Source: Lentzea pudingi (lineage in GTDB: Bacteria; Actinomycetota; Actinomycetes; Mycobacteriales; Pseudonocardiaceae). From it: DNA of 64,000 bases. The notes under the pieces are model-generated. The model was not told the DNA's origin, did no database searches, and was given only the letters and a program-made list of their open reading frames with translations. The position numbers and the translations under genes are program-made. Below, one piece after another: positions 46,758 through 63,999 of the stretch (position 1 is the first letter of the stretch; every line of letters starts with the position of its first letter). The stretch covers positions 186,001 through 250,000 of the forward strand of contig NZ_BMNC01000001.1 in the NCBI RefSeq assembly GCF_014646255.1, given 5' to 3'.

Positions 46758-48563
46758 TCAGCGGGCGTCGGCTGTCACCAGTAATCGCAGGTGCGCTGTC
46801 AGCCAGGTGGTCGGGGTTGGGGCGTCGGCGAACGCCGTTGTGTGGGTTGCCGCTGTGTGCAGGCCCGCGTTGTGCAGGTGGGTGCCTACCTCGCGGACGC
46901 GGGTCAGCAGGCTTGCTGTCAGGTGGTCCAGGCCTCGGTGTGCGGCCTCGGCCAGCACTGTCAGGGCGCTGTCTATCGCTGCGCTCAGCGGGTCGGATGT
47001 TGTGGTGCCTGGCTGGAGGGGTTGCGGTGTTGTGTCGGTCGTTAGGTCGGGCACCACCACGCCTGTCGGGGTGTGGACTGCCAGTGGGTCCACTACCAGC
47101 GTGCCCCGGTGGCGGCGGATTGTGCCGGTGATCGTTGTCGGGGTTGCTCGTAGTGCTGTTGTCAGCGCGTCCAGGGCGTTGGGGGCTACGGCTCGGTGGG
47201 TTGCTTCCAGTAGGCACGTTGTGCCGGTGGGGGAGTGCAGAGTTGCCGTCAGGCGTTGTGCGGCCGGGTCGTAGGCGAGGTCGGTGACCTCGGCTACTCG
47301 TAGAGCGCGGACCAGTTCTGCTTCCACCCTGGCGCGGACCTGGCGGGGTGGTAGTTCGGCCAGGGTGGTGGCGGCTGCGGTGTAGTCCTCGATCACCAGG
47401 GCCTGGGCGAGGTGGTTCCAGGCGGTGCCTACCGGGGTCAGCGAGGTTTTGGCTACGCGGCTGGTTTTCAGCGTTACTGCGCGGCTTGCGCTTCGGGTTG
47501 CCGATTCGGACACCACGTTCGACGCTGCCAGGTGTTGGCCTGTGCGCCTTGGGGTGTCGCGCTGTACCAGCACCACGTCGCCCGATGCGAAGTAGACGTC
47601 GGCTGTTGTTCCTGTGCGGAGGCGGGCGCCCAGTGCGGTCAGGCGGACGCGTTTGAGCGGGGTCTCGGCTGGTTCGTCCGGGCCCAGGACTTCGGCTCGT
47701 GGGCCTGTGGCCGTGGTGCGGGCGTGCAGTTCGGTCAGCAGGGCGGCGAACCGTTCTGCCTCGTAGTCGGCGCTTCGGTTGCGGTAGGCCGTCAGCTGGG
47801 CGAGCAGGTCGGTGATCACCGCGGCTGGCCAGTGCAGGCGTTGCGCGGTCAGGTCGCGGTGCAGGCGTTGCCAGGCCACGTCCAGCACCTCGCTCGCGTT
47901 CGTGGTGCCGTCCAGCAGTAGCTGGTCCAGCAGGTCTGTCACGGCGGTCAGATCCGTTGCGGTGGTGGGGGATCCGCCTACGTCGATGGTGTCGGCGCCT
48001 TGTTCGTCCGCTTCGCGGAATGCCCACACCGCCAGCGCCGTCGCTTCGTCCTTGTTGACGGCGTCGGTGTGGACGTAAGACAGGTCGCCGGGCACCAGGA
48101 ACGTGACCGTGCAGGTCGGGAGTTCTGCCTGTGCCGTCTGGTCGTCCTGTGTCGGGCGGCGGAGCTTCGCGCGGTAGCCCGCCTGGTGGGCCCTGCGGGC
48201 GCGGCGCAGGGTGCGGTCGCCCATCAACGCCGCCAGTTCGGCGTCCGTCACGGCACCGGGCGACCACAGTTCGGTGGGGGCGCTTGCTTCCTGGGTGCGT
48301 TGGTACGCGAGGACGACGGCGATGCGGTGCCGGCAGACTCCTGCCGCGCCGCAGCTGCAGTGCGCCGCGTCGAGTGTGGTGCCTGGTGGCAGTGTGGTCG
48401 TGGTGCCGTCCGGGAACTTGACCCGCACGGCACCGGCCGGATCGGTGTCGAGGGCGGGGACGACGCCCGCGTCGAGCTCCTTGACGGCACGTTTCACCAG
48501 ACCGCGGTTGGTCAGCGCCGCGAGCGCGTCCGGGGTCAGTGCCAGCAGGTCGGGTCTGGTCAC
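46758..48563 (-). CDS. SWIM zinc-finger protein (YehQ-like)
   Basis: A 601-residue protein. The SWIM finger C-x-C-x5-C-x-H lies near the N-terminus (HCSCGAAGVCRH, Cys69, Cys71, Cys77, His79). SWIM domains bind nucleic acids or proteins. The rest is a long helical/beta region without recognised motif. The ATG at 48563 overlaps the VWA stop (ATGA), so it is the last gene of the WGR-MoxR-VWA train. This matches the end position of E. coli yehQ in its cluster (from memory). It is probably the nucleic-acid- or substrate-binding arm of the system. Confidence 0.85.
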   Translation of the reverse strand: MTRPDLLALTPDALAALTNRGLVKRAVKELDAGVVPALDTDPAGAVRVKFPDGTTTTLPPGTTLDAAHCSCGAAGVCRHRIAVVLAYQRTQEASAPTELWSPGAVTDAELAALMGDRTLRRARRAHQAGYRAKLRRPTQDDQTAQAELPTCTVTFLVPGDLSYVHTDAVNKDEATALAVWAFREADEQGADTIDVGGSPTTATDLTAVTDLLDQLLLDGTTNASEVLDVAWQRLHRDLTAQRLHWPAAVITDLLAQLTAYRNRSADYEAERFAALLTELHARTTATGPRAEVLGPDEPAETPLKRVRLTALGARLRTGTTADVYFASGDVVLVQRDTPRRTGQHLAASNVVSESATRSASRAVTLKTSRVAKTSLTPVGTAWNHLAQALVIEDYTAAATTLAELPPRQVRARVEAELVRALRVAEVTDLAYDPAAQRLTATLHSPTGTTCLLEATHRAVAPNALDALTTALRATPTTITGTIRRHRGTLVVDPLAVHTPTGVVVPDLTTDTTPQPLQPGTTTSDPLSAAIDSALTVLAEAAHRGLDHLTASLLTRVREVGTHLHNAGLHTAATHTTAFADAPTPTTWLTAHLRLLVTADAR

Positions 48564-49663
48564 CTGAGTTTCTCCGCAACGAATTCAGCCAGTTGACCGG
48601 GGGTCATCGCGCCGACGTGGGCGCCGGCGTTCGCGAGGCGCTGGCCCAAAGCCCTGTCGTAGTCCGGGTTCGCCTCGTCGTCCAGCGCTGCCAGGCCCAG
48701 CACGTGGGTGCCCTGCTCGCACAGGCCCTTGACCGTGCGGACCAGCCGTTCCTCGCTGCCGCCCTCGTAGAAGTCGCTGATGATCGCCACGATCGACCGG
48801 CGCGGGCTGTCCACGAGCTCGGCGCCGTAGGCGACGGCCTTGGCGATGTCCGTGCCGCCGCCGAGCTGCACCTTCATCAGCAGCTCGACCGGGTCCGTCA
48901 CGTCCGAGGTCAGGTCGACCACGTTGGTGTCGAACGCGACGAGGTGCGTCTTGAGTCCCGGCAGCCCCCACAGGCACGCCGCCGTGACGGCCGAGTGGAT
49001 GACCGAACTGGTCATCGAGCCCGACTGGTCCACCAGCAGGATCACCTGCCACTGCTCCAAGTGCCGCTTGGTGCGCGAGACGAACTTCGGGTGCTCGATC
49101 GCGAGCTTGCGCTCATCCGGTTGGTAGCGCTGGAGGTTCGCTTTGATCGTCGAACGGAAGTCGAAGTTGCGCGAGTTCTTGTGGATGCTCGGCCGGCGCG
49201 ACCTGGTGCCGCTGAACGCCGTGCGCACCTCCGTCTTCAACTTCTCCATCAACTGCTTCACGACCGCTTCGACGATCTTGCGCGCCATCGCGAGCACGGC
49301 CGGGTTCATCAGGTGCTTGGTCCGCAGCACCGCGCGCAGCAGCGCCGGGTTCGGCTCGATCCGTTGCAGCACATCGGGATCCGTGACGACGTCGGTGATC
49401 TCGTACCGCTCGACCGCGTCGCGCTCCAGCCGCTCGATCGTCTCCCTCGGAAAGAGGGTGTGCACCTCGTCCAGCCAGTCGACGGTCTTGAGCACCGAGT
49501 CCTCGCTGCCGCCCTTGCGCACGCCGCGTTCGGCCAGCCCCGGATCACGTCCGTAGAGCCACTCCAGCGCCGCGTCCTGCCGGGCCGCGGCGCCCTGCAG
49601 GCCTCCGGTGCAGCGCGACGCCGGTTCGCCGAGGATCAGCCGCCAGCGTTCCAGGTCCGTCAT
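48560..49663 (-). CDS. VWA-domain protein partner of MoxR (YehP-like)
   Basis: A 367-residue protein with a helical N-terminal half (1-200) and a C-terminal von Willebrand A domain (about 205-367). The MIDAS is complete: DQSGS (Asp212, Ser214, Ser216), Thr271 in GGGTDI and Asp297 in IISDFYEGG. VWA-MoxR pairs act as chaperone-like machines in which the ATPase remodels a target bound through the VWA domain. The ATG at 49663 overlaps the DUF5682 stop (ATGA), and its own stop overlaps the SWIM start. Basic residues (RSRRPSIHKNSRNFDFRS) precede the VWA. Confidence 0.9.
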   Translation of the reverse strand: MTDLERWRLILGEPASRCTGGLQGAAARQDAALEWLYGRDPGLAERGVRKGGSEDSVLKTVDWLDEVHTLFPRETIERLERDAVERYEITDVVTDPDVLQRIEPNPALLRAVLRTKHLMNPAVLAMARKIVEAVVKQLMEKLKTEVRTAFSGTRSRRPSIHKNSRNFDFRSTIKANLQRYQPDERKLAIEHPKFVSRTKRHLEQWQVILLVDQSGSMTSSVIHSAVTAACLWGLPGLKTHLVAFDTNVVDLTSDVTDPVELLMKVQLGGGTDIAKAVAYGAELVDSPRRSIVAIISDFYEGGSEERLVRTVKGLCEQGTHVLGLAALDDEANPDYDRALGQRLANAGAHVGAMTPGQLAEFVAEKLR

Positions 49664-51861
49664 GCCAGTCCGCCCTTCACCAGCAACGCGTCCACGCGCT
49701 TCTCGATCGCCATCGCCTCCGCCACGGTGATCGGGTCGGCGGTCAGGCGGGTGACGCCCTTCGCGCTGCCCTCGACACCGCGATGGGCGAGGACGGTGGC
49801 CGCGATGGTCTCCCTCTCCCGGGGAGGGAAGTAGCTGAAGGCGAGCCGCAACGCGGGCAGCGCCACCAGGAACTCGTCGGAGTCCATGGCACTGATCAGC
49901 TCGTCGAGCACCCCGACGAGGTCCGGGCTCGCCAGCACCTCTTCCCGTGCCACCGCGAACAACCCGGTGAGCCAGTCGCCGAGCGCCTCGACGGCCCGGA
50001 TCTTGCCGACGTCCGGCTGGCTGCCGAGCGTCCAGGCCAGTCCGAGCGCCGCACCGCGCAGGTCCGGCGGCGCCTGCACGTCGTTGCTCACTCGGGTCGC
50101 CACGCCCGTGACGTCCACTATGTCCAGTGACAACGCGGATCTGGCGTGCAGCACCGCGTCCCTGGTCGCCGCCATCGCCTTGAGGCGGTGCGGGTCGGCC
50201 GGGGCCGGGCCGCCGTGCAGGCCCTCGACCAGCCACAGCACCCGCGCCGTGCCCACGTCGATCACGGAGCCCAGCAGCGGGTCCTTCCTGGTGCCGAACA
50301 ACCTGTCGTGCCGCCACAGGCCGAGCACGCCGCTCAGCACGTGACCCAGCGCCGCCAGATCACCCGTGTCCCGGACGCCCTCGTTGAGCGACTGCTTGAC
50401 CCTGCCGGACAGCGCCGAGATCCCGCACAGCACCGCGTCGAACAGGATCGCGGCCAGTTCTTCGAGCTGCGCGTGCCGGGACCGGCGTTCCAGCGCCACC
50501 CCGGCCGCTTCCTCCAGCGTGGCGCCGTTCTCGGCGGCCTCGATCAACGCGGCCAGCCGTTCCTCGACCGGCCGGAGCGTCCACTGCTCGTCCAGCTTCG
50601 GCTGCGCGCCCTCGGACGGACCGCTCGTGCGCTCGAAGCCGGGGATTCGCAGCACCCGCAGGCGGTGCAGGACCCGGCTGCGCTCCAACGCCTCCGGGTC
50701 CGTGAGGTCGAGCGCGACCTTGCCCTCCTGGTCGAGCCCGTGCGTCCGCAGCAGCTCCTGCACCGCGTTCACCAGCGGCGGTGCGGGCGTGCTCGGGTGC
50801 AGCCGGCCGACCTTGCCGCCCCGCAACGCCCCGAGCATCTCGACCAGCGCCGGGTGCGCGCCGGGCTGCAGCGTTCCGCGCCGCGTCCACGGTGGCGGCT
50901 GCGTCAGGTCCTCGGAGATCAACGCGCTGGTCAGCCCGTCGAGCACGTCGGTGCGCGCCAGGTTCTCGTGCCCGCGCAACCTCGCCAGCGCACCGGCCTG
51001 CGTGCGCGCCGCGATCAGGTCGGCCGTCGACACCGGCTGCTGCCGCCCGCGCAGCCGCGTCGCCACCGACTCGACCAGCCAGTCCGCCGCCCGTTGCGAC
51101 CCTTCCTCCCAGACCCGCTGGTAGTAGCCGGGCGACGGCATGCCCGACTGGTAGCCGGTGAAGGCGTCCAGCCGTGCGTGCGAATACGGCACGAGATAGC
51201 TCGCACCCCGCTCGCGCTCCGGCACCTCAGGCCACTCGGTGCCGCCGTCGAGCTGCGCCTTGAGCGCGGCCGTGTGGAAGCCGCCGGTGATCACGACGAC
51301 GGGCCGGTCGCCCGCGTCGTGCACCGCCGCCCGCACCCAGCGCGCCATGTACTCCTCGCGCGCCGAGTCGCCCTCGTCCGCGGTCGCCGTGCCGCGCAAC
51401 AGGTCGAAGTACTCGGCCATGCCCTCCGGCTCGGTCTCGCACTCGAAGAGGTGGTCCCACAGCACGTCGACGTTGTCGACCGAGAACTCCGTGCACAGCC
51501 GGTCGACGACCTCGGTGTACCGCAGCTCCGCGTCCGCGTACCTGTTGTTGACGTCGCGGAACGCCTCGTGCCACGCGGGCAGGTCGATGAACCTGACCTC
51601 CGCGCCACAACGGCGTGCCTCGGTGATCGCCACCCACTCCGGCGAGTAGTCGCAGAACGGCGACCACGACGCGTGCTGGTCGGAGTAGCTGAACAACGCG
51701 ACGGGCAACTCGTGCCCGAGCAGCAGCTCGTCGATGCGCTCGTTGAAGTCGGCGGGACCCTCGACGAGCACGTACGCGGGCTGCTGTTCGGCGATCGTGG
51801 CGGCGACCAGCCGGGCACAGGCGGGACTGTGGTGCCGGACGCCGACGAAGACGGCCCCCAT
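49660..51861 (-). CDS. DUF5682 protein (YehM-like)
   Basis: A 733-residue cytoplasmic protein of the DUF5682 family. The N-terminal third has an alpha/beta character with conserved His/Ser/Asp clusters (VGVRHHSPACARL, VEGPADFN, FSYSDQHASWSPFCDYSPEW, VVVITGGFHTAAL). The GGFH segment and HHSPA motif look like active-site or ligand-binding loops, reminiscent of TraB/ChaN-like folds (inference). The remaining two thirds are helical repeats. The start ATG at 51861 shares one base with the MoxR stop (TGATG). Always seen with MoxR/VWA neighbours in the enterobacterial yeh cluster, as far as I recall. Confidence 0.85.
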   Translation of the reverse strand: MGAVFVGVRHHSPACARLVAATIAEQQPAYVLVEGPADFNERIDELLLGHELPVALFSYSDQHASWSPFCDYSPEWVAITEARRCGAEVRFIDLPAWHEAFRDVNNRYADAELRYTEVVDRLCTEFSVDNVDVLWDHLFECETEPEGMAEYFDLLRGTATADEGDSAREEYMARWVRAAVHDAGDRPVVVITGGFHTAALKAQLDGGTEWPEVPERERGASYLVPYSHARLDAFTGYQSGMPSPGYYQRVWEEGSQRAADWLVESVATRLRGRQQPVSTADLIAARTQAGALARLRGHENLARTDVLDGLTSALISEDLTQPPPWTRRGTLQPGAHPALVEMLGALRGGKVGRLHPSTPAPPLVNAVQELLRTHGLDQEGKVALDLTDPEALERSRVLHRLRVLRIPGFERTSGPSEGAQPKLDEQWTLRPVEERLAALIEAAENGATLEEAAGVALERRSRHAQLEELAAILFDAVLCGISALSGRVKQSLNEGVRDTGDLAALGHVLSGVLGLWRHDRLFGTRKDPLLGSVIDVGTARVLWLVEGLHGGPAPADPHRLKAMAATRDAVLHARSALSLDIVDVTGVATRVSNDVQAPPDLRGAALGLAWTLGSQPDVGKIRAVEALGDWLTGLFAVAREEVLASPDLVGVLDELISAMDSDEFLVALPALRLAFSYFPPRERETIAATVLAHRGVEGSAKGVTRLTADPITVAEAMAIEKRVDALLVKGGLA

Positions 51862-52931
51862 CAGCCGGGCAGCAGGTGCCGCGCACGGTGCAGCTCCTGC
51901 CACTGGTCGCCCTTGCGCCGCACCGCGTGCTGCTCCAGGTACCGCCGCAACCGCGCCAGGTCCTCGGCGTTGTCCTTCGCCGCCGTGCCCGCGAGGCACT
52001 CCACGACGTCCGCCGCCGACCCGACCTCACCTCGCAGGAACCAGCCCCGCAGCCCGACCGCGTGCGCCACCGAGACGGCCTCGGCCGTGCTCATCACCGT
52101 GGTGAGCCTGTCGTTGCCCTCGCGCAGGTCGCGGAACGTGCGGACCAGGACCTCCAGCACGTCGCGCCTCGGAGCGAGCTCCACGCCGGAGCGTTCCAGC
52201 AGCTTCGCCGACTCCTGCTCGACCAGCGCGAGCTCGGTGTCGAAGTCCGCGATCGGGAACACCGTCTCGAAGTTGAACCGCCGCTTGAGCGCGGCGCTCA
52301 TCTCGTTGACGCCCCTGTCCCGCGTGTTCGCCGTGGCGATCACGTTGAACCCGTCCTGCGCGAACACCATGCCGTCCGGGCCGTTCAGCTCACCGATCGC
52401 CATCACTCGGTCGGACAGCATCGACAGCATGCAGTCCTGCACCTCGAGCGGACAGCGCGTGATCTCCTCGAACCGCACGATCTTGCCCTCGGCCATGCCC
52501 CGCAGCATCGGCGCCGGCACGAGCGACCGCGGCGACGGACCCTCCGCGACCAGCAGCGCGTAGTTCCAGGAGTACTTGATCTGGTCCTCGGTGGTGGCCG
52601 CGCCACCCTGGATCGTCAGCGTCGACTCGCCGCACACCGCCGCCGCGATCAGCTCCGACAGCAGCGACTTCGCGGTGCCCGGCTCGCCGACGAGCATCAG
52701 GCCGCGGCTCGTCGCGAGCGTGACCAGCGCCCGGTCCACGAGGGACGGATCACCCACGAACTTCTTGGTGATGCCCCGCTTCTCGTCACCCACCACGAAC
52801 TTGCGCGCGGCGTCGAGGCTCAGCGCCCAGCCGGGGGGTTTGGGCGCGGTGTCGGTGTCCCGCAGGCGCGCGAGCTCGTCGGCGTAGCGGACCTCGGCGG
52901 GAGGACGCTGCATCGTCCGGGTGCTGGTCAT
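51861..52931 (-). CDS. MoxR-type AAA+ ATPase (YehL-like)
   Basis: A 356-residue AAA+ ATPase. Walker A GEPGTAKS (82-89), Walker B VRFEEI (152-157), sensor 1 at ATANTRDRG (about 200-207) and an arginine-finger region ALKRRFNFE (214-222) are all intact, followed by the C-terminal lid. MoxR proteins are chaperone-like ATPases that work with VWA proteins. It is coupled by ATGA to the upstream WGR-DUF4132 gene A and by one shared base to DUF5682. It is the motor of the five-component module. Confidence 0.92.
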   Translation of the reverse strand: MTSTRTMQRPPAEVRYADELARLRDTDTAPKPPGWALSLDAARKFVVGDEKRGITKKFVGDPSLVDRALVTLATSRGLMLVGEPGTAKSLLSELIAAAVCGESTLTIQGGAATTEDQIKYSWNYALLVAEGPSPRSLVPAPMLRGMAEGKIVRFEEITRCPLEVQDCMLSMLSDRVMAIGELNGPDGMVFAQDGFNVIATANTRDRGVNEMSAALKRRFNFETVFPIADFDTELALVEQESAKLLERSGVELAPRRDVLEVLVRTFRDLREGNDRLTTVMSTAEAVSVAHAVGLRGWFLRGEVGSAADVVECLAGTAAKDNAEDLARLRRYLEQHAVRRKGDQWQELHRARHLLPG

Positions 52932-55900
52932 GACTGCAGGGACTCCAGTTCGGAGAGGATCTCGGAAAGGGTGATCGGATCGATCGCGAAGGTGGCCGGG
53001 GCGTCCCGCGGTGCGGACCACGTGCCTTGACCGCTGGGCGAGAACCACATGTCGCTGAAAGCGACCTCCGGGAAGACGTCCATGGCGCCCACCGCGATGC
53101 CGGGGTCCATCGCCGCGACGAGCGCGCCGCCGCCCGGGAACGGCCGGGTGATCCAGCACTCGACGCCCGCGTCCTGCGGCTCGCCGCGCACCCAGCCCTT
53201 CTTGGTGAGGCCGAGGATCTTCCCGATCGGGTACGGGGTGTCGCAGGACTTCTTCAGCCGGGGAAGGACGTCCTCTCCGGACGCCACCAGGTGGACCGGG
53301 CGGCCCAGCTGAGGGAACGGCTGGAGGATCTCGTAGTCGGCGAAGACCTCACCCCACGCCGGCGCCGCGTCCCGCAGGTCGACCGGGTGCGCCACGCGCA
53401 CGACCGCGGTCTCGGGCAGCGTGAACTCGTCGTCGCCGGAGTCGGCGAGCGTGCGGTCCTCGGCCAGGCGGAAGGACTCACCGTCCGCGGTGATCCACAC
53501 CAGGCGGCGGACGATGTGCCACAGCAGCGGGTGGCCGGCCAGGACCGTGTGGAACTCCTCGGCGGTCCAGGTGCGCTGGTCGACCATGGCCCGTTCGAGG
53601 CGTTGGATCTGGTCGGACGCGATGGTGCGGACGTCCTTCTTCAACGCCATGAACCGCTTGTGCTCCAGCGGCGCCTGGTCCTGGTCGTCCTTCGCGCCGG
53701 GCTTCGGGAGGTCCTTGCGGCGCTTGCCGTCCGGGTCCAGCACGAACGGCTTGAGCTGCTCGTCGAAGCCGACCGTGAACTGCCGCGGGCCGTAGTCGAC
53801 CACCAGGGTCGCGGCGTCGTCGAGACCCAGGCGCGGGACCAGCCGGTCCGACAGCTGGTCGCGGGACAGACCGAGCTCCGCCGCGATCTGGGCGACCTTC
53901 TCCTGGGCCTTGGTCTTGAGGCCCTTGAACGACACCTTCTCGGCGATGCTGTTCAGGTGCGAGAGCGCGACCTCGGTGCCGATGTCGGCGAGGACGTCGA
54001 GACCTGCGACGGCGCGGGCGTGCTGGCTCTCACCCGGCCAGTTGCGGATCAACGGCGACAGCGCGCGCACCGTCGAGTCGTCGCCGAACCAGCCGAGCGC
54101 GGCCAGCGCCCAGCTCTCCTTCGACGGACCGCCTGCCTGTTCCCACGCCTGGAACGCGGCCCAGGCGAACGCCGCCAACGAATCGCGGTCGAGCGCTTCG
54201 CGGACGACCGGCAGCCCGGCGTAGAGCTCGCCGGGCTTGGACAGTGCGGCCGTCATCAGCAGATGACCGGCGGCCTCCGCGGACAGCGCGTGCGTGCGGT
54301 CCGCCAGCAGGACCTGCGGCAGCAGGCGCGTGTCCGCCCACTCGCCGATCGCCGGCAGCTTCGTGGGCAGCACGTCGACCGGGTCGACCGACAGCACGAC
54401 GTCGATCGCGGCCTCGGCGCCGCACTCCCTGGCGATCGCGGCCACGTCGACACCGAGGTTGTTGTTCAGGTGCCGCAGCGCGGCCTCGGCGTTGCGGCGG
54501 GGGACACCGGCCTTCCCGGCGGCCGCCGGGATGAGCAGACGGGCGGCCTGCTCGCGGTGCCGGGCCAGCCACTCGAGGCCCCAGCGCCGGGCCGACTTGG
54601 TCCGGGCGAACCAGTCGGCCATCTGCGTGGCCACCTCGGCCGTCGCGAACGGCATCAGCAGCATCGCGGTCCCCGCGGGAGCGGACTGGACGTGCCGGAG
54701 CAGCGGCGGCGCGGCATCGGCACCGAACCGGGCGGCCAGGTTCTTGCCCCACTCCTCGACGCCCCAGCTGTAGTTCGGCGTCCAGTCCGTGAGCAGGTGC
54801 CGCACCTCGTCGTCGGGCGCGAGGAGGAACAGGTCGTTGTCGTAGTAGTCGACGACGCCGGCCAGGTACTCCTCGAGCAGCTTGCGCCAGTCGCGTTGGT
54901 CCTGCAGCCACGAAGAGCCGGACGCCAGCCACTCGGCGTGCTCGCCGGGCAACCAGCTCACCACCGGCTCCGGCAGCGGAAGGTCCTCCAGCACCACGGG
55001 TTTCACGGGCTTGCGGCGATGCAGCCACGGCGGCGACGCCAGCAACGGTGGCAGCAGGTCCGCGCTCGCCTCCGGCACGATCGCCTCGGCGGACTCGGCG
55101 AGCAGCGCGGCGACCTCGCCGGGCACGGTCAGGTGCGGGTTGCTCCGCAGGTGGACGTTCAGCAGCCGACGCACGGCCTCACCCGAAGACGCGCGCTCGG
55201 CCAGCAGCCGCGCCGCCCTCACGGGGAACGCCCTCATCGCGGACACCACGGCGGGCAGCACGTACTTCCCGTCCAGCCGGTCGAGCAGGATCGTGAACGC
55301 CTCGTCGGTCGGTAGCGCCGCGAGCACGGTCAACGCCTGTTTGCGGCCTCCCGTGCGCTGGTGGTAGCTGTCGGAGTCGAGCTCCTTCGCGAGCAACGGC
55401 GCGACGGCCGGCCCCAGCACGTACACCGCCGTGTAGAGCACGAACGCCGATGTCGTGAGCGATTCGTCGATGTCCCTGAAGTCTTCGAGGCTGCGGGCGC
55501 TGCTCGTCAGCATCCACCAGCGGCTTCGCGTGTACCGGTGCTTGCGCACCTGGGTGAACCAGTCCGCCCGCTCAGGGATCAGGTAGCACCGCAGCTCCTG
55601 CCCGGTCTCCGACTCGCCGAGCTCCTCCAGCGCGCCCTCGGCCGCCGCGCGCTCCTCGGGGCTCGCGACGGCGATCGCGTACCGGACGGCAGTGAGCATC
55701 AGGCCTTCCGGTTCACCGATCGACGTCTGGAAGTTGCCCGTGCGGTACCGCAGGCAGATCCCGGTCCACCTGCCGTGCTGGTTCCGCTGGTCGCTGTACG
55801 TGAGGCTCGTGAGCTGGACGACCGCGGTGGCGGCGAAGGCGAGGCCGTGGTCGGCGATCCAGGCGTGCACGGCGAGCACGCTCGCCTTCGTGATGGCCGC

Positions 55901-56518
55901 GATCGCCGCCGCTCCGACGGGATTCGGCTGCCCGGCCACGTACTCGCGAGCCGCGCTGACCAGGTCGGGCTCCGAGCCCTGGGCCGAGAAGGCCTGCTCG
56001 ATCGTCTCGGCCTGGTCCGTGATCAGCTGCCGCGCCTGCTCGGCCTTCGCCGGGTCGACCGTGAACTCAGGCTCCGGGTGGAAGCCGCGCTGGCGCACCG
56101 CGTCCCGTGCCCAGGCCTTGGGCAGGATCCAGGTGTCTTCGTCGATGACGGGCGGGGGTGTGGGGCTGGGTTCTGTGGAGGGCTGCGAAGTGGCGGGGGC
56201 GCTGGTGGCAGGTGTGGTGCCGGGCTGCGCGGTGGTGGGCTTCGCGCCGGTGGACTGGCGGGCTGTGGCCGGTGAGGTGGTTGCTTGGCTTGCGATGCCG
56301 GGCTGGGCGGCCGGGCCTTCCGGTCTGTAGCCCTTCTTCTCCTTCTCCGCCACCAGTTTCGCGACGTGCGCGGTGGCCGTCTCGGCGGAGGCCAGCTCCT
56401 TGGTCTGGGTCTGGCCCGCGGTGCCGAGCCGTCCGAACCGGACGGTCACCGTCGCGCCGGACTGCTCGATCTCCCAGAACTTCGCGGAGCCGTCCGCGAC
56501 GAGTTCCCACCTGCGCAC
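52928..56518 (-). CDS. WGR-DUF4132 giant protein, paralog A (MolR/YehI-like)
   Basis: A 1196-residue protein. An N-terminal WGR domain (about 1-65: RRWELVADGSAKFWEIEQ, VTVRFGRLGTAGQTQTKEL, AEKEKKGYRP) is followed by a Thr/Pro/Ala-rich linker (about 68-145), a long HEAT-like helical region (about 150-850) and a C-terminal DUF4132 region (about 870-1196, with LGLTKKGWVRGEPQDAGVE and LSEILSELESL). WGR domains are known from PARPs, where they bind DNA ends, and from E. coli MolR. The GTG at 56518 has GGAGG seven bases upstream and aligns with paralogs B and C; an upstream in-frame ATG at 56584 is not conserved. The stop overlaps the MoxR start (ATGA). Confidence 0.88.
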   Translation of the reverse strand: MRRWELVADGSAKFWEIEQSGATVTVRFGRLGTAGQTQTKELASAETATAHVAKLVAEKEKKGYRPEGPAAQPGIASQATTSPATARQSTGAKPTTAQPGTTPATSAPATSQPSTEPSPTPPPVIDEDTWILPKAWARDAVRQRGFHPEPEFTVDPAKAEQARQLITDQAETIEQAFSAQGSEPDLVSAAREYVAGQPNPVGAAAIAAITKASVLAVHAWIADHGLAFAATAVVQLTSLTYSDQRNQHGRWTGICLRYRTGNFQTSIGEPEGLMLTAVRYAIAVASPEERAAAEGALEELGESETGQELRCYLIPERADWFTQVRKHRYTRSRWWMLTSSARSLEDFRDIDESLTTSAFVLYTAVYVLGPAVAPLLAKELDSDSYHQRTGGRKQALTVLAALPTDEAFTILLDRLDGKYVLPAVVSAMRAFPVRAARLLAERASSGEAVRRLLNVHLRSNPHLTVPGEVAALLAESAEAIVPEASADLLPPLLASPPWLHRRKPVKPVVLEDLPLPEPVVSWLPGEHAEWLASGSSWLQDQRDWRKLLEEYLAGVVDYYDNDLFLLAPDDEVRHLLTDWTPNYSWGVEEWGKNLAARFGADAAPPLLRHVQSAPAGTAMLLMPFATAEVATQMADWFARTKSARRWGLEWLARHREQAARLLIPAAAGKAGVPRRNAEAALRHLNNNLGVDVAAIARECGAEAAIDVVLSVDPVDVLPTKLPAIGEWADTRLLPQVLLADRTHALSAEAAGHLLMTAALSKPGELYAGLPVVREALDRDSLAAFAWAAFQAWEQAGGPSKESWALAALGWFGDDSTVRALSPLIRNWPGESQHARAVAGLDVLADIGTEVALSHLNSIAEKVSFKGLKTKAQEKVAQIAAELGLSRDQLSDRLVPRLGLDDAATLVVDYGPRQFTVGFDEQLKPFVLDPDGKRRKDLPKPGAKDDQDQAPLEHKRFMALKKDVRTIASDQIQRLERAMVDQRTWTAEEFHTVLAGHPLLWHIVRRLVWITADGESFRLAEDRTLADSGDDEFTLPETAVVRVAHPVDLRDAAPAWGEVFADYEILQPFPQLGRPVHLVASGEDVLPRLKKSCDTPYPIGKILGLTKKGWVRGEPQDAGVECWITRPFPGGGALVAAMDPGIAVGAMDVFPEVAFSDMWFSPSGQGTWSAPRDAPATFAIDPITLSEILSELESLQS
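53422..53737. repeat. Near-identical DNA tract shared by paralogs A and B
   Basis: This stretch of paralog A and 57127-57442 of paralog B (offset 3705) differ at roughly eight positions over 316 bp by eye, including long synonymous identity. Flanking parts of the two genes are clearly more diverged. Reads as a gene-conversion or recent-duplication tract coding for the LEHKRFMALKKDVRTIASDQ to LADSGDDEF portion. Confidence 0.75.
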
Positions 56519-56569
56519 TGCGTTACCTCCTGGGGCCACACAAGGGAGTTGATGTGCACGGACGTTACT

Positions 56570-56623
56570 CAGGGGGTCTGACAATTCTTCACGGTGAGCT
56601 TGAAGAGCTGATCAGACCCCCTG
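56570..56623 (-). terminator. Long hairpin between paralogs B and A
   Basis: Perfect 12-bp arms CAGGGGGTCTGA (56570-56581) and TCAGACCCCCTG (56612-56623) with a 30-nt loop that itself pairs TCTTCA with TGAAGA. It lies 13 nt after the paralog B stop and 52 nt before the paralog A start on the transcribed strand. No T-run. It may be a (partial) terminator, an RNA-processing or stability element separating A-MoxR-DUF5682-VWA-SWIM from B and C. Confidence 0.65.
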
Positions 56624-56635
56624 TCGCGCGGCTTG

Positions 56636-59600
56636 CTACCGCAGTGACTCCAGTTCGGACAGGATCTCCGAGGCCGTGATGGCGTCGGTGGTCAGGGCTT
56701 CGGTGGCGTTGCGCTGGGAGGACCAGTAGCCGTACCCGTTGGCGGAGAACCACAGCTCGGTGAACCTGACCTCGGGGAAGATGTCGATCGCGCCCACCGC
56801 GATGCCGGGGTCGAGGGACGCGACGAGGGCGCCGCCGGTCGGCAGCGGGCGGGTGATCCAGCACTCCACGCCGCCGTCCTGCGGTTCGCCGCGGACCCAG
56901 CCCTTCTTGGTGAGGCTGAGGATCTTGCCGATCGGGAAGTCCGCGTCGCAGTACTTCGTCAGGTGCGGCAGGAGGTCCTCGCCCGGCGGCACCAGGTGCA
57001 GTGGACGGCCCAGCTGGGGGAAGGGTTGGAGGATCTCGTAGTCGGCGAAGACCTCGCCCCAGGCTTCCAGCACGTCCTGGAGGTCCACGGGGTGCGCCAC
57101 CCGGACGGTCGAGGCCTGCGGCAGGATGAACTCGTCGTCGCCGGAGTCGGCGAGCGTGCGGTCCTCGGCCAGGCGGAAGGACTCACCGTCCGCGGTGATC
57201 CACACCAGCCGGCGGACGATGTGCCACAGCAGCGGGTGGCCGGCCAGGACCGTGTGGAACTCCTCGGTGGTCCAGGTGCGTTGGTCGACCATGGCGCGTT
57301 CGAGCCGCTGGATCTGGTCGGACGCGATGGTGCGGACGTCCTTCTTCAGCGCCATGAACCGCTTGTGCTCCAGCGGCGCCTGGTCCTGGTCGTCCTTCGC
57401 GCCAGGCTTCGGGAGGTCCTTGCGGCGCTTGCCGTCCGGGTCGAGGACGTAGGGCTTGAGCTGTTCGTCGAAGCCGACGGTGAACCTGCGCGGGCCGTAG
57501 TCGATCACGAGGCTGGCGGCGTCGTCGAGACCCAGGCGCGGCACGAGGCGGTCGGCGAGCTGGTCACGGGAGAGACCCAGTTCGTCGGCGATCTGGGTGA
57601 CCTTCTCCTGGGCCTTCGTCTTGAGGCCCTTGAACTTCACCTTCTCGGCGATGCTGTTGAGGTGGGACAGCGCGACCTCGGTGCCGATGTCGGCGAGGAC
57701 GTCGAGGCCCGTCACGGCGCGGGCGTGCTGGCTCTCACCCGGCCAGACGCGGATCAGCGGGGACAGCGAGCGGACCGTCGAGTCGTCGCCGAACCAGCCG
57801 AGTGCGGTCAGCGCCCAGCCCTCCTTCGACGGCGCGCCGACCTCCTGCCAGCGCTGGAACACGGCCCAGGCGAACTCCGCCAGCGAACCGGGGTCGAGTG
57901 CCTCGCGGGCGAGTGGCAGCCCGGCGTAGACGTCGCCCGGCTTGGATAGCGCGGCCGTCATCAGCAGGTGCTTCGCCGCCTCGGCGGACAGGGCCTGCCT
58001 GCGGTCGGCCAGCAGGACCTGGGGCAGCAGGCGGGTGTCCGCCCACTCACCGATCGCCGGCAGCTTGGCGGGCAGCACGTCGACCGGGTCGACGGCCAGG
58101 AAGGACTCGAGAGCGGCGGCCGCGGCCGGGCTCGGGGCGAGCGCGACCACGTCCACACCGAGTGCGTGCAGGTGGCGGAGCGCGGTCTCGGCGTTGCGCC
58201 GCTCGGCACCCGCCTTGCCCAGGGCGGCGGGGACGAGGAGGCGCGCGGCCTGCTCGCGGTGCCGGGCGAGCCAGCTCAGCGCGATCTTGCGCACCTGCTT
58301 GAGCCGCACCAGCCAGTCGGCCATCAACGCGGCCACCTCCGGTGTGGCGAAGGGCAGCAGGATGACCGCCGTGCCCGAGCTCCGCTCCGCGATGCGCAGC
58401 AGCGGGGGCAACGCGTCGAAGCCGAACTTCGCCGCCAGCCGCTTGCCCGCCGACTCCGCGCTCCAGCCGAGGTTCGGCTGCCAGTCCGCGAGCAGGTGCC
58501 GCACCTCGTCCTCGGGCGCCCCGACGAGCAGGTCGGCCATGCGGTAACCGATCCGGCCCGCCTTGTACTCCGCCAGCCAGTGCTGCCAGGTCTTGTAGGG
58601 GTGGGTGTCCCAGTGGCCGTCCCTCAGCCACTCCTCCCGCTCGCCCGGCTGCCACGTGATCGACGCGCCGGGCACCGGCAGGTCAGGCACGACCACGGGC
58701 TTCACCGGCGGCTTCCGGTGCAGCCAGGGCGGCGAGGCCAGCACCGGTGGCAACGCCTCCGCCGGAGCCTCCGGCACCACGACCGTCTCGACCTCGACGA
58801 ACCCGGCCGGCGTTTCGAGGTGCGGATACGTCTTGAGGTGCACGCCGAGCAACTGCCGCAGTTCGGCGCTGCGGTCGGCGCGTTCGCCCAGCAACCGGGC
58901 CGCCCGCGCCGGGAACGCGGCCATCATCGACAGCACCGCCGGACGCACGTACTTGGTGTCGATCCGGTCGAGCAGGATGGTGAACGCCTCGTCGCTGGGC
59001 AGCGCCGAGAGCACCTTCAGCACCTGCTTGCGGCGGTCCGAGCGCTGGTACGGGTGGTCGAGCGCGACCGCGAGCAACGGCGCGACCGCCGGGCCCAGCA
59101 CGTAGACCGCCGTGTGCAGCACGACGCTGCTGTTGGACAGCTGCGCGTGCTCGAACTCCTCGAAGGTGGTGGCGCTGCAGGGAAGGACCCACCAGCGGTG
59201 GTTCGAGTTCGGCGTCTGGGCCGCCTCGTGGAACCAGTCTGACCGGCCCGGCATCATGAACGTGCGTGCCAGCTTCGCGTTGACCAGGTCTTGTTCGCCG
59301 AGCCTGGAGAGCACGGCTTCCACCGCGTCGCGTTCGGTGTCGGGCGCGACCGCCAGTGCGTACCGGATCGTCTTGAGCATCTTGCCTTCGACGTTGTCGA
59401 GGTTGATGTGGAGGTAGCTGCGGGACACCACGCGCTCGGGGCCGTACTCGCGTTGCTGTGAGAACCATTCGCGCGCGCAGGCCAGCTTGGTGAACTCGAT
59501 CGTGGCTTCTGTCGCGAACGCCAGGCCGTGGTCGGCGATCCAGGCGTGTGCCGATTGTTCGCCGATGGTGAGGATGACGGCGATCGCTGCCGCGCCCAGG

Positions 59601-60454
59601 GGGTTGGGGTGGCCGGCCAGGTGGTCGCGGGCTGCTTGCACCACGTCGTGGTCGGAGGTGGGTTCGGACAGGATCCGCTCGAGGGTGGTGTCCGTTTGGG
59701 TGGTGTCTGTTTGGGTGGTGGTTCGGCGCCTTGCTTCTTCTGCCAGGGCGGTGTTGACCGCGAACTCCGGGGCGGGGTGGAAGTCGCGTTGGCGGATCAC
59801 GTCGCGCAGCCAGGTTTTGGGCATGGCCCAGGTGTTTTCGTCGGTGGGTGGGGGGAGTTCGGTGGTGGGGGAGGGGGTGTTGGAGTGAGAGGCGGGAGGA
59901 GAGAGGGGCGGGTGAGGCGCTGGGGGAGTGGTGGTGGGCTGGGTGGCGGTCTCGGGTGGGGTGGCGGGGTGGGTGAGGGCGGGGGTGGTGGGGTGGGTGG
60001 CGCTGGCGAGAGTGGTGGCCGGCTGGGGCATGCCGGGGGAGATGGTGGTCGGCTGGGGCGTGCCGGCGGAGGTGGTGGTGGATTGGGTGGCGTCGGCGGG
60101 CTGCGTGCCCGGCGACGTGTCCACCCCGACTGGGGCCGTGGTGGGCTGGCCGGCTGGTCGAGTTGTGGCGGGGGCGGACTGAGGTGCGCCGGCCGGAGAG
60201 ACGGTGGCGGCTGGCGTGGTCACCTCGCCTTCGGTGGTGGTGGTGGTGGCGGCGACTGCGCGGTAGCCCTTCTTCTCCTTTTCTGCCACCAGCTTTGCGA
60301 CGTGCGCCTTCGCTGCCTCTGCGGAGGCCAGGTCCTTGGTCTTGGTCTGGCCGTGCGTGTCGATCCGTCCGAAGCGGACGGTGACCGCGGCGTCGGCCTG
60401 GCTGACCTCCCAGAACTTCGCCGCGCTGCCCGAGACGAGCTCCCACCTGCGCAC
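56636..60454 (-). CDS. WGR-DUF4132 giant protein, paralog B
   Basis: A 1272-residue paralog of A with the same layout: WGR (about 1-65, RRWELVSGSAAKFWEVSQ, VRFGRIDTHGQTKTKDL, AEKEKKGYRA), then a much longer Thr/Pro-rich linker (about 68-210, with repeated TPQPTT/MPQPATT units), a HEAT-like body and a C-terminal DUF4132 region ending TASEILSELESLR. The GTG at 60454 lies seven bases after a GGGAG and matches A and C; the huge open frame further upstream is only an antisense-free shadow of paralog C in another frame. It ends 117 bp before A. Its last 400 residues are far closer to A than the first 800. Confidence 0.87.
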   Translation of the reverse strand: MRRWELVSGSAAKFWEVSQADAAVTVRFGRIDTHGQTKTKDLASAEAAKAHVAKLVAEKEKKGYRAVAATTTTTEGEVTTPAATVSPAGAPQSAPATTRPAGQPTTAPVGVDTSPGTQPADATQSTTTSAGTPQPTTISPGMPQPATTLASATHPTTPALTHPATPPETATQPTTTPPAPHPPLSPPASHSNTPSPTTELPPPTDENTWAMPKTWLRDVIRQRDFHPAPEFAVNTALAEEARRRTTTQTDTTQTDTTLERILSEPTSDHDVVQAARDHLAGHPNPLGAAAIAVILTIGEQSAHAWIADHGLAFATEATIEFTKLACAREWFSQQREYGPERVVSRSYLHINLDNVEGKMLKTIRYALAVAPDTERDAVEAVLSRLGEQDLVNAKLARTFMMPGRSDWFHEAAQTPNSNHRWWVLPCSATTFEEFEHAQLSNSSVVLHTAVYVLGPAVAPLLAVALDHPYQRSDRRKQVLKVLSALPSDEAFTILLDRIDTKYVRPAVLSMMAAFPARAARLLGERADRSAELRQLLGVHLKTYPHLETPAGFVEVETVVVPEAPAEALPPVLASPPWLHRKPPVKPVVVPDLPVPGASITWQPGEREEWLRDGHWDTHPYKTWQHWLAEYKAGRIGYRMADLLVGAPEDEVRHLLADWQPNLGWSAESAGKRLAAKFGFDALPPLLRIAERSSGTAVILLPFATPEVAALMADWLVRLKQVRKIALSWLARHREQAARLLVPAALGKAGAERRNAETALRHLHALGVDVVALAPSPAAAAALESFLAVDPVDVLPAKLPAIGEWADTRLLPQVLLADRRQALSAEAAKHLLMTAALSKPGDVYAGLPLAREALDPGSLAEFAWAVFQRWQEVGAPSKEGWALTALGWFGDDSTVRSLSPLIRVWPGESQHARAVTGLDVLADIGTEVALSHLNSIAEKVKFKGLKTKAQEKVTQIADELGLSRDQLADRLVPRLGLDDAASLVIDYGPRRFTVGFDEQLKPYVLDPDGKRRKDLPKPGAKDDQDQAPLEHKRFMALKKDVRTIASDQIQRLERAMVDQRTWTTEEFHTVLAGHPLLWHIVRRLVWITADGESFRLAEDRTLADSGDDEFILPQASTVRVAHPVDLQDVLEAWGEVFADYEILQPFPQLGRPLHLVPPGEDLLPHLTKYCDADFPIGKILSLTKKGWVRGEPQDGGVECWITRPLPTGGALVASLDPGIAVGAIDIFPEVRFTELWFSANGYGYWSSQRNATEALTTDAITASEILSELESLR

Positions 60455-60543
60455 TGACTGCTCCCTGCTGTTCGATCCGAGGTTGTTGGCGGTGACCGCG
60501 CCGAGCCGGTCTGACGTTGGACGTCGATCAACCGTTCCCGTTG

Positions 60544-63500
60544 TCAGGCGTGCAGTGATTCCAGTTCTGAGATGAGCTCCGAGGCGGTGACCTCGTCCAC
60601 GGGGAAGGTGGCTGGGCCGCCGTCGCGTGGGGGAGACCAGTGGCCGGTGCCGTCCTCGGCGTAGTACAGGGCGCTGAACTTCACCTCGGGGTAGATGTCG
60701 ATCGCGCCGATCGCTATGCCGGGGTCGAGGCAGGCCACCAGGGCGCCGCCGGACGGGAGGGGGCGGGTGATCCACTCCTCCACGCCCGCGTCGAGGGGTG
60801 TGCCGCGCACCCAGCCTCGCTTGGTCAGGCCCAGGACCTTGCCCACGGGCATGGGCAGGCCCACGTACTTCTGCAGTTGGGGAACCGTGTCCTCGTCCGG
60901 GAGGAAGGCGTGGGCTCGCCGGCCAAGCTGGGGGAAGGGTTGCAGGATCTCGTAGTCCGCGAAGACCTCGCCCCAGGCGGGCAGCGTGCCGGTGAGGTCG
61001 ACCGGGTGCGCCACCCGGACGGTGGCGGCCTCGGGAAGGGTGAACTCGGTGTCCTCGGGGGTGGCGAGGGTGTTGTCCTCCGCCAGGCGGAAGGTCCGGC
61101 CCTCGTCGGTGATCCAGACCAGGCGGCGGGCCACGTGCCGGAGCAGGGGGTGGTCGGCGAGGACGGTGTGGAACTCGGCCGCTGTCCAGGTGCGTTGGGT
61201 CGTCATCGCGCCTTCGAGGCGGTGGATCTGGTCGGACGCGACTGTGCGGACGGCCTTCTTCAGTTCGGCGAAGCGCTTGTGCTCGGCCGGTGCGAGTTCT
61301 TGATCGTCCTTCGCGCCCGGTTTGGGGAGGTCGGTGCGGCGCTTGCCGTCCTGGTCGAGGACGTGGGGCTTGAGCTGTTCGTCGAAGCCCACGGTGAACT
61401 GGCGCGGGCCGTAGTCGATCACCAGGGTTGCGGCCTCGTCGAGGCCCAGGCGGGGGACCAAGCGGTCGGACAGTTGGTCGCGGGACAGGCCGAGGGTCGC
61501 GGCGATGGTGGCGACCTTCTCCTGGGCTTGGGCCTTGAGGGCCTTGAACTTCACCCTTTCCGCGATGCCGTTCAGGTGGATGAGGGCCGCCTCGGTGCCG
61601 ATCTGGGCGAGCACGTCGAGGCCCGTCACGGCCTTGGCGTGCGCGTTCTCGCCGGGCCAGGCACGGATGAGCGGGGCGAGGCGGCGCACCGTCTCGTCGT
61701 CGCCGAACCAGCCGAGAGCGGGCAGCACCCAGCCGTCCGCGGTCGGGGTGCCCATGGCCTGCCAGCGGCCGAAGAGCGCCCAGCCGAACTCCGCCAGCGA
61801 CTCGCGGTCGCACGCCTCGACGGCGAGCGGCAGGCCCGGGTAGACGGCATCCGGTTTGGACAGTGCGGCCGTCATCAGGAGATTGGTGACGGCCTGCGCG
61901 GGCAACGCGGCGGTGCGGTCGTGCAGCAGCACCTGGGGGAGCAGGCGCGGGTCCGCCCACTCGCCGATCTCCGGCAGCTTCGCGGGAAGGGCGTCGAGCG
62001 GGTCGACCTCGATCAGCGCGCGGACCGCCGCGCCCGCCTCCTCGCTGACCGCCGTGGCGACGGCGATGACGTCGACACCGGTCTCGTGGTGGAGGTGGCG
62101 GAGAGCAGTCTCCGCGTTGCGGCGTGCCCGGCCCGCTGCGCCCAGGGCCGACGCCAGCAGGAGACGGGCGGCCGTCTCGCGGTGCCGGTCGAGCCAGGCG
62201 GTGGCGTGTGCGCGGGCGGATTTGAGGCGCGTCAACCAGTCCGCCATCTGCGCGGCCACCTCGGCGGTGGCGTACGGAAGCAGCGCCACGCCCGTCCCCT
62301 GCGGGTGGCGTGCCGCGAGCCGCAGCAGCGGGGGCAGTGCGTCCAGCTCGTACCGGGCGGCGATGCGCCTGCCCCAGTTCTCGCTGTCCCAGGTGTCGCG
62401 GGGCACCCACTCGGCGAGCAGAGGACGGGCCAGGTCTTCGGGACCGGCCTCGAACAGCCTGTTGTCGTGGTCGCGGATCTGGCCGGACGTGAGCCAGGCG
62501 GTCAGGACCTCCCAGTTCTGGCGGGAGCTCACAGTGCCGTCGTAGCACCGGATCGCCAGCCATTCCCCGCGCTCTCCCGGCAGCCACGAGAAACTCGGGC
62601 CGGGCGTCGGGACGTCCTTCAGCACCACGGGTTTCGGCTGCGGCCGGCGGCGTGCCCACGGTGGATCGGCGAGCACACCGGGCAGCGCGGACGCCGGTGC
62701 CTCCGGGTGGCGCTGCGACTCCGCCTCGGCGAGCAGTGCGGTGGCGGCCGCGGGCACCTCCAGGCCCGGATGCGCCGACAGGTGGGCGCGCAGCAGCGGC
62801 AGGACATCGGGTTCGGCCGCGCGCGGTCCCAGCAACCGGGCCGCCCGCAGCGGGAACGCCGCCATCGCGGCCAGCAGCGAGGGCAGCACGAACTTCTCCT
62901 GCCGGCGGTCCAGCAGGAGCGCGAACGCCTCGTCCGTCGGCAGGGTGGCGAGCAGCTTCAGCGCGAACTTGCGGCGATCCACGTCGAGGGCGGGTTCGTC
63001 GAGCTCCTCGGCGAGGAACGGCGCGATCGCGGGCCCCAGCGCGTGCAAAACGGTGTGCGTCGTGAGCGGGGACCAGGTGATCCAGCGGTGCTGCAGGGCG
63101 GCGAGCTGCTCCAGCGTGCTCACCGAGCACAACGTCATCCAGTTGGAGGGCGAGCCGGGGGCGTCGGCGTTCGCCTCCTCGAACCAGTCGTGTCGGCCGG
63201 GGACGAGGAAGGCCCGCGCCACCCGGCCGAACCGGCCGTCACCGACCTTCTCCAGCTCGGCGACGGCGGCCTCGTGGGTCTCCGCGTCCGCGACGGCGAA
63301 AGCCGAGCGCAGCAGGATCAGGGACTCGCCGTCGTGCTCGGCCGGGTCGATCTGATGTTCTGGGAACGCGTTCAAATACGCCTTGAACGTCCGGTCGGTG
63401 CGCGAATCGCGGAAGCCACCGAGGAAAAGGGTGCCGAGGCGCACCATCGCCGCGACCGCGAACGGCAGCCCGTACTCCGCGATCAGCCAGTGCACCGTCG

Positions 63501-63999
63501 CCTTGTGCAACTGGGCGACTCGCGCGAGCGCCGCCGCGCCCAGGTGGCTTGGTCGGCCGGCGAGCTGCTCCCGCAACGCGTGCACGACGTCGGCGTCCGA
63601 CCTCTCGTCGGCCAGCACCTCGGCGATCGCGGCGTCGTTGGCGGGAACCCAGTCGCGGAACTCCCGCACGCGAGCGGCGTCCACTGCGAAGCGTGGCAAC
63701 GGATCGAGGCCACGACGGCGCAGCACGTCCCTCATCCGGGGCGCGGGCATCACCCAGGTCTCCTCGGATGGAGGCGCGAGAACGGGGAGAACAGCGGCGG
63801 CGCTCCGGTAGCCCTTCTTCTCCTTGTCCGCCACCAGTTTCGCGGCGTGCGCCTCGGCGGCGGCCTCGGACGGCAGCTCCTTGCGCTGGGTCTGCCCGGC
63901 AGCGCCGAGCCGTCCGAACCGGACGGTGACCACGGCACCGGCCCGCTCGATCTCCCAGAACTTCGCCGAACCACCGGCGACGAGCTCCCACCTGCCCAC
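60544..63999 (-). CDS. WGR-DUF4132 giant protein, paralog C
   Basis: A 1151-residue paralog. WGR (about 1-65: GRWELVAGGSAKFWEIER, VTVRFGRLGAAGQTQRKEL, ADKEKKGYRS) is followed almost directly by the helical body, with only about 12 linker residues, then DUF4132 ending TASELISELESLHA. The GTG at 63999 is one base from the window edge but aligns exactly with the starts of A and B, so the gene is probably complete. It is the most diverged of the three. Promoter and further upstream genes are outside the window. It is 89 bp upstream of paralog B. Confidence 0.85.
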   Translation of the reverse strand: MGRWELVAGGSAKFWEIERAGAVVTVRFGRLGAAGQTQRKELPSEAAAEAHAAKLVADKEKKGYRSAAAVLPVLAPPSEETWVMPAPRMRDVLRRRGLDPLPRFAVDAARVREFRDWVPANDAAIAEVLADERSDADVVHALREQLAGRPSHLGAAALARVAQLHKATVHWLIAEYGLPFAVAAMVRLGTLFLGGFRDSRTDRTFKAYLNAFPEHQIDPAEHDGESLILLRSAFAVADAETHEAAVAELEKVGDGRFGRVARAFLVPGRHDWFEEANADAPGSPSNWMTLCSVSTLEQLAALQHRWITWSPLTTHTVLHALGPAIAPFLAEELDEPALDVDRRKFALKLLATLPTDEAFALLLDRRQEKFVLPSLLAAMAAFPLRAARLLGPRAAEPDVLPLLRAHLSAHPGLEVPAAATALLAEAESQRHPEAPASALPGVLADPPWARRRPQPKPVVLKDVPTPGPSFSWLPGERGEWLAIRCYDGTVSSRQNWEVLTAWLTSGQIRDHDNRLFEAGPEDLARPLLAEWVPRDTWDSENWGRRIAARYELDALPPLLRLAARHPQGTGVALLPYATAEVAAQMADWLTRLKSARAHATAWLDRHRETAARLLLASALGAAGRARRNAETALRHLHHETGVDVIAVATAVSEEAGAAVRALIEVDPLDALPAKLPEIGEWADPRLLPQVLLHDRTAALPAQAVTNLLMTAALSKPDAVYPGLPLAVEACDRESLAEFGWALFGRWQAMGTPTADGWVLPALGWFGDDETVRRLAPLIRAWPGENAHAKAVTGLDVLAQIGTEAALIHLNGIAERVKFKALKAQAQEKVATIAATLGLSRDQLSDRLVPRLGLDEAATLVIDYGPRQFTVGFDEQLKPHVLDQDGKRRTDLPKPGAKDDQELAPAEHKRFAELKKAVRTVASDQIHRLEGAMTTQRTWTAAEFHTVLADHPLLRHVARRLVWITDEGRTFRLAEDNTLATPEDTEFTLPEAATVRVAHPVDLTGTLPAWGEVFADYEILQPFPQLGRRAHAFLPDEDTVPQLQKYVGLPMPVGKVLGLTKRGWVRGTPLDAGVEEWITRPLPSGGALVACLDPGIAIGAIDIYPEVKFSALYYAEDGTGHWSPPRDGGPATFPVDEVTASELISELESLHA

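Follow-up and report, generated by a model that had tools for sequence, protein, structure and literature searches.

The window analyzed here is a stretch of 64,000 nucleotides (nt) from Lentzea pudingi (C1:186001-250000 of a 9.2 Mb genome) that carries, on its minus strand, a module of seven co-directional genes related to the molR/yeh cluster of Escherichia coli. In order of transcription, these genes, each verified to the base, encode three proteins with WGR and DUF4132 domains (C, B and A), a MoxR AAA+ ATPase, a DUF5682 protein, a VWA protein, and a SWIM-like protein (Table 1). The last five are joined by overlaps of 4, 1, 4, and 4 nt, and gaps of 89 nt (C-B) and 117 nt (B-A) separate the first three; the layout given in a preliminary description of this DNA was thus reproduced in its coordinates, overlaps, and gaps. 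Gene C is complete: its frame closes just upstream, and an alternative GTG start one codon upstream, at 64002, falls outside the window.

Table 1. Genes and predicted damage promoters of the module, with the two sister operons of the same genome (window positions unless a contig is named; aa, amino acids).
Feature	Position	Strand	Description and basis
Damage-promoter motif before gene C	64041-64062 (genome C1:250041-250062), just beyond the window	-	Pattern match
Gene C	60544-63999	-	1151 aa; WGR (residues 8-67) and DUF4132 (residues 885-1063; window 60811-61347); Pfam
Degenerate damage-promoter copy before gene B	60494-60516	-	Retains GTCAGACC, without the TA of the -10; read in the sequence, no strict match
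Gene B	56636-60454	-	1272 aa; WGR and DUF4132 (window 56897-57433); Pfam
Damage-promoter motif TTGTCAGACCCCCTGAGTAACGT before gene A	56562-56584	-	Predicted PafBC/RecA-NDp promoter of A-MoxR-DUF5682-VWA-SWIM; consensus of PMC5656591
Gene A	52928-56518	-	1196 aa; WGR (1-65), disordered linker (69-119), helical solenoid (~156-890), DUF4132 (931-1109) in the C-terminal part; Pfam, predicted model
MoxR AAA+ ATPase, YehL type	51861-52931	-	356 aa; Pfam AAA_5; 66% identity to E. coli YehL
DUF5682 protein	49660-51861	-	733 aa; Pfam 2.5e-103; putative N-terminal ChaN/HopBA1-like domain (~1-209) and helical C-terminal part in the predicted model
VWA_CoxE protein	48560-49663	-	367 aa; PF05762 6.9e-56; DxSxS metal site intact; 61% identity to E. 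coli YehP
SWIM-type protein, YehQ position	46758-48563	-	601 aa; Pfam below cut-off; tblastn synteny
Sister operon L057, SWIM-DUF5691-MoxR-DUF5682	C5:536191-542534		Damage motif before first gene
Sister operon L058, VWA-MoxR-DUF5682	C1:1006047-1013230		Damage motif before first gene

The promoters of the module resemble those of the actinobacterial DNA damage response. The consensus reported for the LexA/RecA-independent P1 damage promoter is tTGTCRgtg-8nt-TannnT (accessible text of PMC5656591), from which we derived a strict pattern, TGTCRG-N10-TANNNT, that retains the upper-case bases, the R, one lower-case g and a, and the spacing. The sequences upstream of gene A (TTGTCAGACCC-CCTGAG-TAACGT) and gene C (CTGTCAGACCC-CCTGGG-TACGGT) both match this pattern, with AC following TGTCAG in place of the lower-case tg of the consensus. 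The recA promoter carries the pattern in all 24 Lentzea genomes, as TTGTCAGACCCCGCCAGTAGCGT in 23 and as TTGTCAGACCCTGTCCGTAGCGT in one, and the 11-mer of gene A is common to the recA promoter of all 24; an actinobacterial LexA-type box, CGAAC-N4-GTTCG, adjoins the motif at Lentzea recA. Because two of the three WGR genes carry the consensus shared with recA, the gene set is predicted to be made upon DNA damage. The motif is also found upstream of ligA and a ClgR-like gene in this genome (the ClgR match is below the NCBIfam cut-off), upstream of pcrA in a genome that contributes a family f18 locus (vide infra), and before the first gene of each of the two sister MoxR-DUF5682 operons. The genome encodes PafC (HTH_PafC, 1.2e-44), in the series WYL gene, PafC, TatA, and contains 106 occurrences of the strict pattern vs 8 of its reversed form.

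The motif recurs at homologous loci in other Actinobacteria. In 21 Lentzea loci, 33 of 47 WGR starts (located by a regular expression that overlooks some copies) are preceded within 150 nt by a strict motif, which starts 57-69 nt upstream and in one case is joined by a second at 140, and every locus has at least one. When 11 loci that we take from their genus names to be Micromonosporaceae are added (set 1), there are 48 strict matches on both strands (42 and 6); 46 lie before WGR/DUF4132 genes (43 by script, and three more, in L040, L047, and L171, that lie before a DUF4132 gene or beyond the script's reach), and the remaining two (L046, L048) lie ~500 nt before other genes. Of the 11 added loci, six have a strict match, and a one-mismatch version can be read in two more (L165, L174). 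In 19 other MoxR-DUF5682 operons (set 2; 20 were fetched, and L061, a DUF4132 locus with neither MoxR nor motif, was left out), all 13 matches precede the called first gene of the module, in 13 loci. In 20 loci from other actinobacterial families (set 3), 13 of 14 matches precede the module, in 13 loci, and one precedes pcrA; all ten canonical family f18 loci fetched carry TTGTCAGTGG. In total, the module accounts for 72 of 75 strict matches, spread over 53 of the 71 loci; the loci were selected for holding the module and those from Lentzea are mutually related, so these counts are not independent events. Distances to starts are approximate, because the first genes come from a crude gene caller, which in the window overlooked the SWIM gene and truncated gene B. 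As controls, the reversed pattern gave 0, 0, and 1 matches in the three sets, and scrambled patterns gave means of 1.4 and 0.8 in sets 1 and 2, with single permutations reaching 22 and 11. As a prediction from sequence, damage-inducible regulation of the module is well supported.

Several other occurrences of the motif are recorded here as side observations. In L170 and L171, it accompanies DUF4132 genes that have no MoxR gene in the fetched DNA. In the L. pudingi genome, it lies 9 nt (L030, C2:737238) and 7 nt (L008, C1:27051) before IS605 OrfB/TnpB-type genes, the first assigned by Pfam and the second by similar first residues only; it also lies 7 nt before a protein kinase gene (L034, C2:1026116) and before a DUF4240 gene (L036, C3:856557), and either gene may be leaderless and induced by damage. 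An inverted repeat close upstream of gene A (CAGGGGGTCTGA ... TCAGACCCCCTG, window 56570-56623), found also in several Lentzea loci, overlaps the damage motif with its right arm; it is possibly the site of a second regulator or a terminator.

Damage-type control has also been reported, or is predicted, for related genes outside the Actinobacteria. In five of six Escherichia/Klebsiella loci, a LexA-like box, CTGGATAAAAWYACAG, with one mismatch to CTGT-N8-ACAG, is located 24-25 nt before the first WGR-type gene (the sixth locus, L103, ends at the contig end), and molR is listed as a LexA-regulated gene in the accessible text of three papers (PMC11039860, PMC4576408, PMC8533742). In Deinococcus radiodurans, the last of these reports that tagged DRA0166 (DUF4132) and DR2173 (WGR) are up after mitomycin C in the wild type and not without irrE, and that both genes have DdrO-type sites upstream. 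We rejected LexA control as a general proteobacterial rule, the box being present in Escherichia/Klebsiella and not in 56 other loci; a GC-rich exact box in L136, 379 nt before a later DUF4132 match, and loose boxes inside MoxR/DUF5682 genes (L103, L128) were taken as chance.

The three WGR-DUF4132 genes appear to be maintained. Both domains score above the Pfam cut-off in A, B, and C (DUF4132 E-values of 9.7e-53 to 1.3e-54); because all three frames are open from end to end and every regional dN/dS (ratio of nonsynonymous to synonymous substitution rates) is below 1 (0.19-0.84 in seven pairwise comparisons of DUF4132 genes), the genes seem not to be in decay. By identity, the solenoid is the region that diverges most in six of these seven pairs, which would be compatible with the suggestion of the preliminary description that the three copies act as alternative receptors. 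Genes A and B (window 52928-60454) share 92% nucleotide identity over residues 900-1050 vs 64-65% over residues 450-600 in the solenoid, which suggests that their tail is shared through gene conversion. The solenoid dominated the structural match lists, and we claim no fold for the DUF4132 tail.

In the partner proteins, the MoxR ATPase contains the Walker A sequence GEPGTAKS and is closer to E. coli YehL (66% identity) than to the MoxR relatives in the two sister operons (44% and 43%). The metal-site string of the VWA protein, DQSGS, is invariant across 7 sequences. The DUF5682 protein also has invariant residues, R9, H10, E34, and H196. In the last protein, the SWIM finger (PF04434) scores 16.5 bits vs a Pfam cut-off of 19.6 and is only suggestive; a CxC-x5-CxH string, CSCGAAGVCRH, is legible.

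The nearest relatives of gene A mostly bear the name Lentzea. DUF4132 is encoded by 21 of 24 Lentzea genomes, including this one, always in 2-4 copies, by none of 12 genomes from the family's other genera, and by 3 of 24 from elsewhere in the order; across the phylum it is scarce, with 19 positive genomes among 396, 18 of them above cut-off. DUF5682 is found in all 24 Lentzea genomes and in 25 of 296 phylum genomes. A one-genome-per-species contig scan, queried with E. coli YehI aligned to genes A and C (best 80 of 332 relatives), gave 73 loci in stretches of at most 20 kb, a few of which overlap on one contig and several of which are cut by contig or fetch limits. MoxR is inside the fetched DNA in 59 of these DUF4132 loci, all four partners (MoxR, DUF5682, VWA, and SWIM) are present in 51, and the exact order of the window (DUF4132, MoxR, DUF5682, VWA, SWIM) is found in 45; Proteobacteria and other Actinobacteria have the module in this order. 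Massilia loci contain up to six DUF4132 cores (copies were counted by a single sequence string, which gives lower bounds), and Escherichia whittamii (L102) has three open tandem DUF4132 genes, with WGR-type starts on the first two, in the place taken in E. coli K-12 by yehF, the pseudogene yehH, and yehI. Because such copies occur in Lentzea, Massilia, and E. whittamii, tandem DUF4132 genes are a feature of the kind and not of this strain. The preliminary description had tied three tandem copies to MoxR and VWA at this one locus; the association extends beyond it: homologous loci are not always single-copy, and MoxR and VWA do occur with DUF4132 elsewhere. Nor do the copies here look degraded. 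In a separate observation, four Massilia loci (L115, L118, L130, L140) have five or six DUF4132 cores in an array, some members of which lack a WGR-type start.

We propose that the module encodes a damage-inducible yeh-type MoxR-VWA machine, with WGR-solenoid-DUF4132 subunits that probably attach to DNA lesions and a MoxR ring that would remodel protein complexes there; we assign this reading a probability of about one half. The regulation is taken from sequence motifs, and the mechanism is inferred from PARP1, RavA-ViaA, and ChaN/HopBA1. Upon DNA damage, the A-SWIM set and gene C would be made from PafBC-type promoters; the WGR domain would, like that of PARP1, bind DNA that is broken or nicked; the VWA protein would link the MoxR hexamer to the DUF4132 tail, which is the more constant part; and ATP hydrolysis would drive the loading or stripping of proteins at the lesion. 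A putative ChaN-like domain in the DUF5682 protein may be a hydrolase-like output arm, the SWIM protein may provide a second contact with nucleic acid or a partner, and the three WGR-DUF4132 copies may be related readers of lesions or clients with a shared docking tail. A wider version, that the yeh module is an ancient cross-phylum damage machine (an analogue of PARP plus p97) with swappable tandem readers on one motor that was captured independently by the LexA, PafBC, and DdrO regulons, is possible but doubtful.

Several observations weigh against a lesion-docking machine under damage control. Within the window, gene B has no strict motif upstream, the WGR tryptophan is replaced by F (FGR), sequence matches to PARP are weak (E-values of 0.013-0.76), and Foldseek found no match at E ≤ 0.001 for either predicted model (gene A and the DUF5682 protein). 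In the ten canonical f18 loci, the motif faces the SWIM gene, and MoxR-DUF5682-VWA diverge from the same intergenic region. A further control is of short reach: the loci of the best 30 of 87 matches to MoxR-proper ATPases, from 11 of these genomes, gave no strict motif, with only 1.5 kb taken on each side (102 kb vs 1.36 Mb of module loci). LexA-like boxes equally loose as that of the Escherichia/Klebsiella loci occur 1-3 times per 21-25 kb locus, so that box is weak alone and draws its weight from its conserved place and the published molR listing. Finally, a strict motif is missing from 18 of the 71 actinobacterial loci, and a convincing LexA box before the module is missing from 56 proteobacterial loci outside Escherichia/Klebsiella; damage-type control is, therefore, lineage-dependent.

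The module could instead encode a general protein-repair chaperone in the style of RavA-ViaA or CbbQ-CbbO that is incidentally damage-induced, with WGR serving only in protein interaction. MoxR proteins have been called chaperone-like maturation factors (accessible text of PMC3893208), and the solenoid in the predicted model of gene A is similar to importin and PP2A repeats at middling Z; however, the constant presence of proteins of the WGR and SWIM types points to DNA, as does the damage control that is reported or predicted under three unrelated regulons, and we consider such a chaperone unlikely.

We regard as similarly improbable a damage-triggered defence or cell-death system, in which MoxR-VWA would restrain a ChaN/HopBA1-like effector in the DUF5682 protein and free it in response to genome damage caused by phage or mobile DNA. 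The window shares with the MoxR-vWA-VMAP ternary conflict systems (accessible text of PMC7159879) a MoxR and VWA core with a large variable partner; however, no VMAP or known effector domain was found in the seven proteins (Pfam, E 0.01), bpMoxR scores 22 bits vs a cut-off of 27, damage control is predicted here, and WGR, SWIM, yeh, MolR, and DUF4132 are not in the main text of that paper. PADLOC-DB 2.0.0 matched only WGR_XIII, at 16.6 bits (A) and 13.7 bits (C), with no match for the other five proteins; ten neighbours are, by Pfam, transporters, regulators, glycoside hydrolases, and unknowns, with no defence genes; none of 50,697 phage records matches gene A; and the E. coli K-12 cluster is chromosomal, beside metG. 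PADLOC, the ten neighbours, and the phage records (for gene A only) provide nothing in favour of a defence island. The preliminary description had fitted the architecture to conflict or nucleic-acid stress: the damage-type promoters speak for the second, and the weak single-protein PADLOC matches, the neighbours, and the lack of a phage match speak against the first. We also dropped an argument from mobility: gene A matches 24 plasmid records, and of three opened, two from E. coli resemble pieces of the chromosomal yeh region and a Rhodococcus plasmid has a DUF4132 gene without annotated MoxR partners. One record of a conjugative E. coli plasmid (L212, NZ_CP103756.1 112714-138357) has an IS26 copy with a yehI-to-yehR stretch on its downstream side.

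A molybdate- or metal-linked regulator or cofactor-insertion system, suggested by the MolR name, a weak cobaltochelatase model match (24.1 bits vs a cut-off of 779), and the service of VWA_CoxE relatives in the maturation of molybdenum enzymes and chelatases, is very improbable, the ten neighbours including no molybdenum gene by Pfam name.

The gene cluster itself is already known, and unexplained, from E. coli, where no role for the yeh genes was found in the portions of the literature examined; its damage control is the new part. We found no link between the module and PafBC, and no overall account of its damage control, in the literature searched; most subscription papers and supplementary regulon tables were outside that search, so single-gene listings are possible. 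If one machine is switched by damage under three unrelated regulators, its role can be tested directly by simple damage assays, and a cluster shared with E. coli would have its first testable function. Bacteria would then have a dedicated ATP-driven machine at DNA lesions that uses the WGR module of PARP without ADP-ribosylation, and the actinobacterial damage regulon would grow by a whole operon family.

Among known systems, PARP1 has the WGR domain in common with A, B, and C; however, its ADP-ribosyltransferase domain was not matched in these proteins (Pfam, E 0.01), and its WGR tryptophan is the F noted above. The YehL subfamily of MoxR ATPases (PMC3893208, whose examined text gives no function or regulation for YehL) shares with the window both the MoxR sequence and a VWA partner gene. 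The module promoter is the same in form as those of recA, ligA, and pcrA in the PafBC regulon; membership of the module is predicted from this motif, and the module is not named there in the portions of the literature examined. Closest is the E. coli K-12 molR/yeh cluster, yehF-yehH-yehI-yehK-yehL-yehM-yehP-yehQ, and the kinship that the preliminary description had proposed is supported by the same components and order and by identities of 66% (MoxR), 61% (VWA), and 37% (DUF5682); yehK has no counterpart in the window. One detail of that proposal was corrected: K-12 YehI, taken to be a WGR-DUF4132 protein, has no WGR signature in the alignment, and the WGR family protein is encoded by yehF, beside the pseudogene yehH. 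Thus, K-12 has a short yehF, a pseudogene, and a WGR-less YehI, whereas the Lentzea locus has three intact WGR-DUF4132 genes; a LexA-like box precedes yehF and a PafBC-type promoter is predicted for the Lentzea locus, both of them damage-type control.

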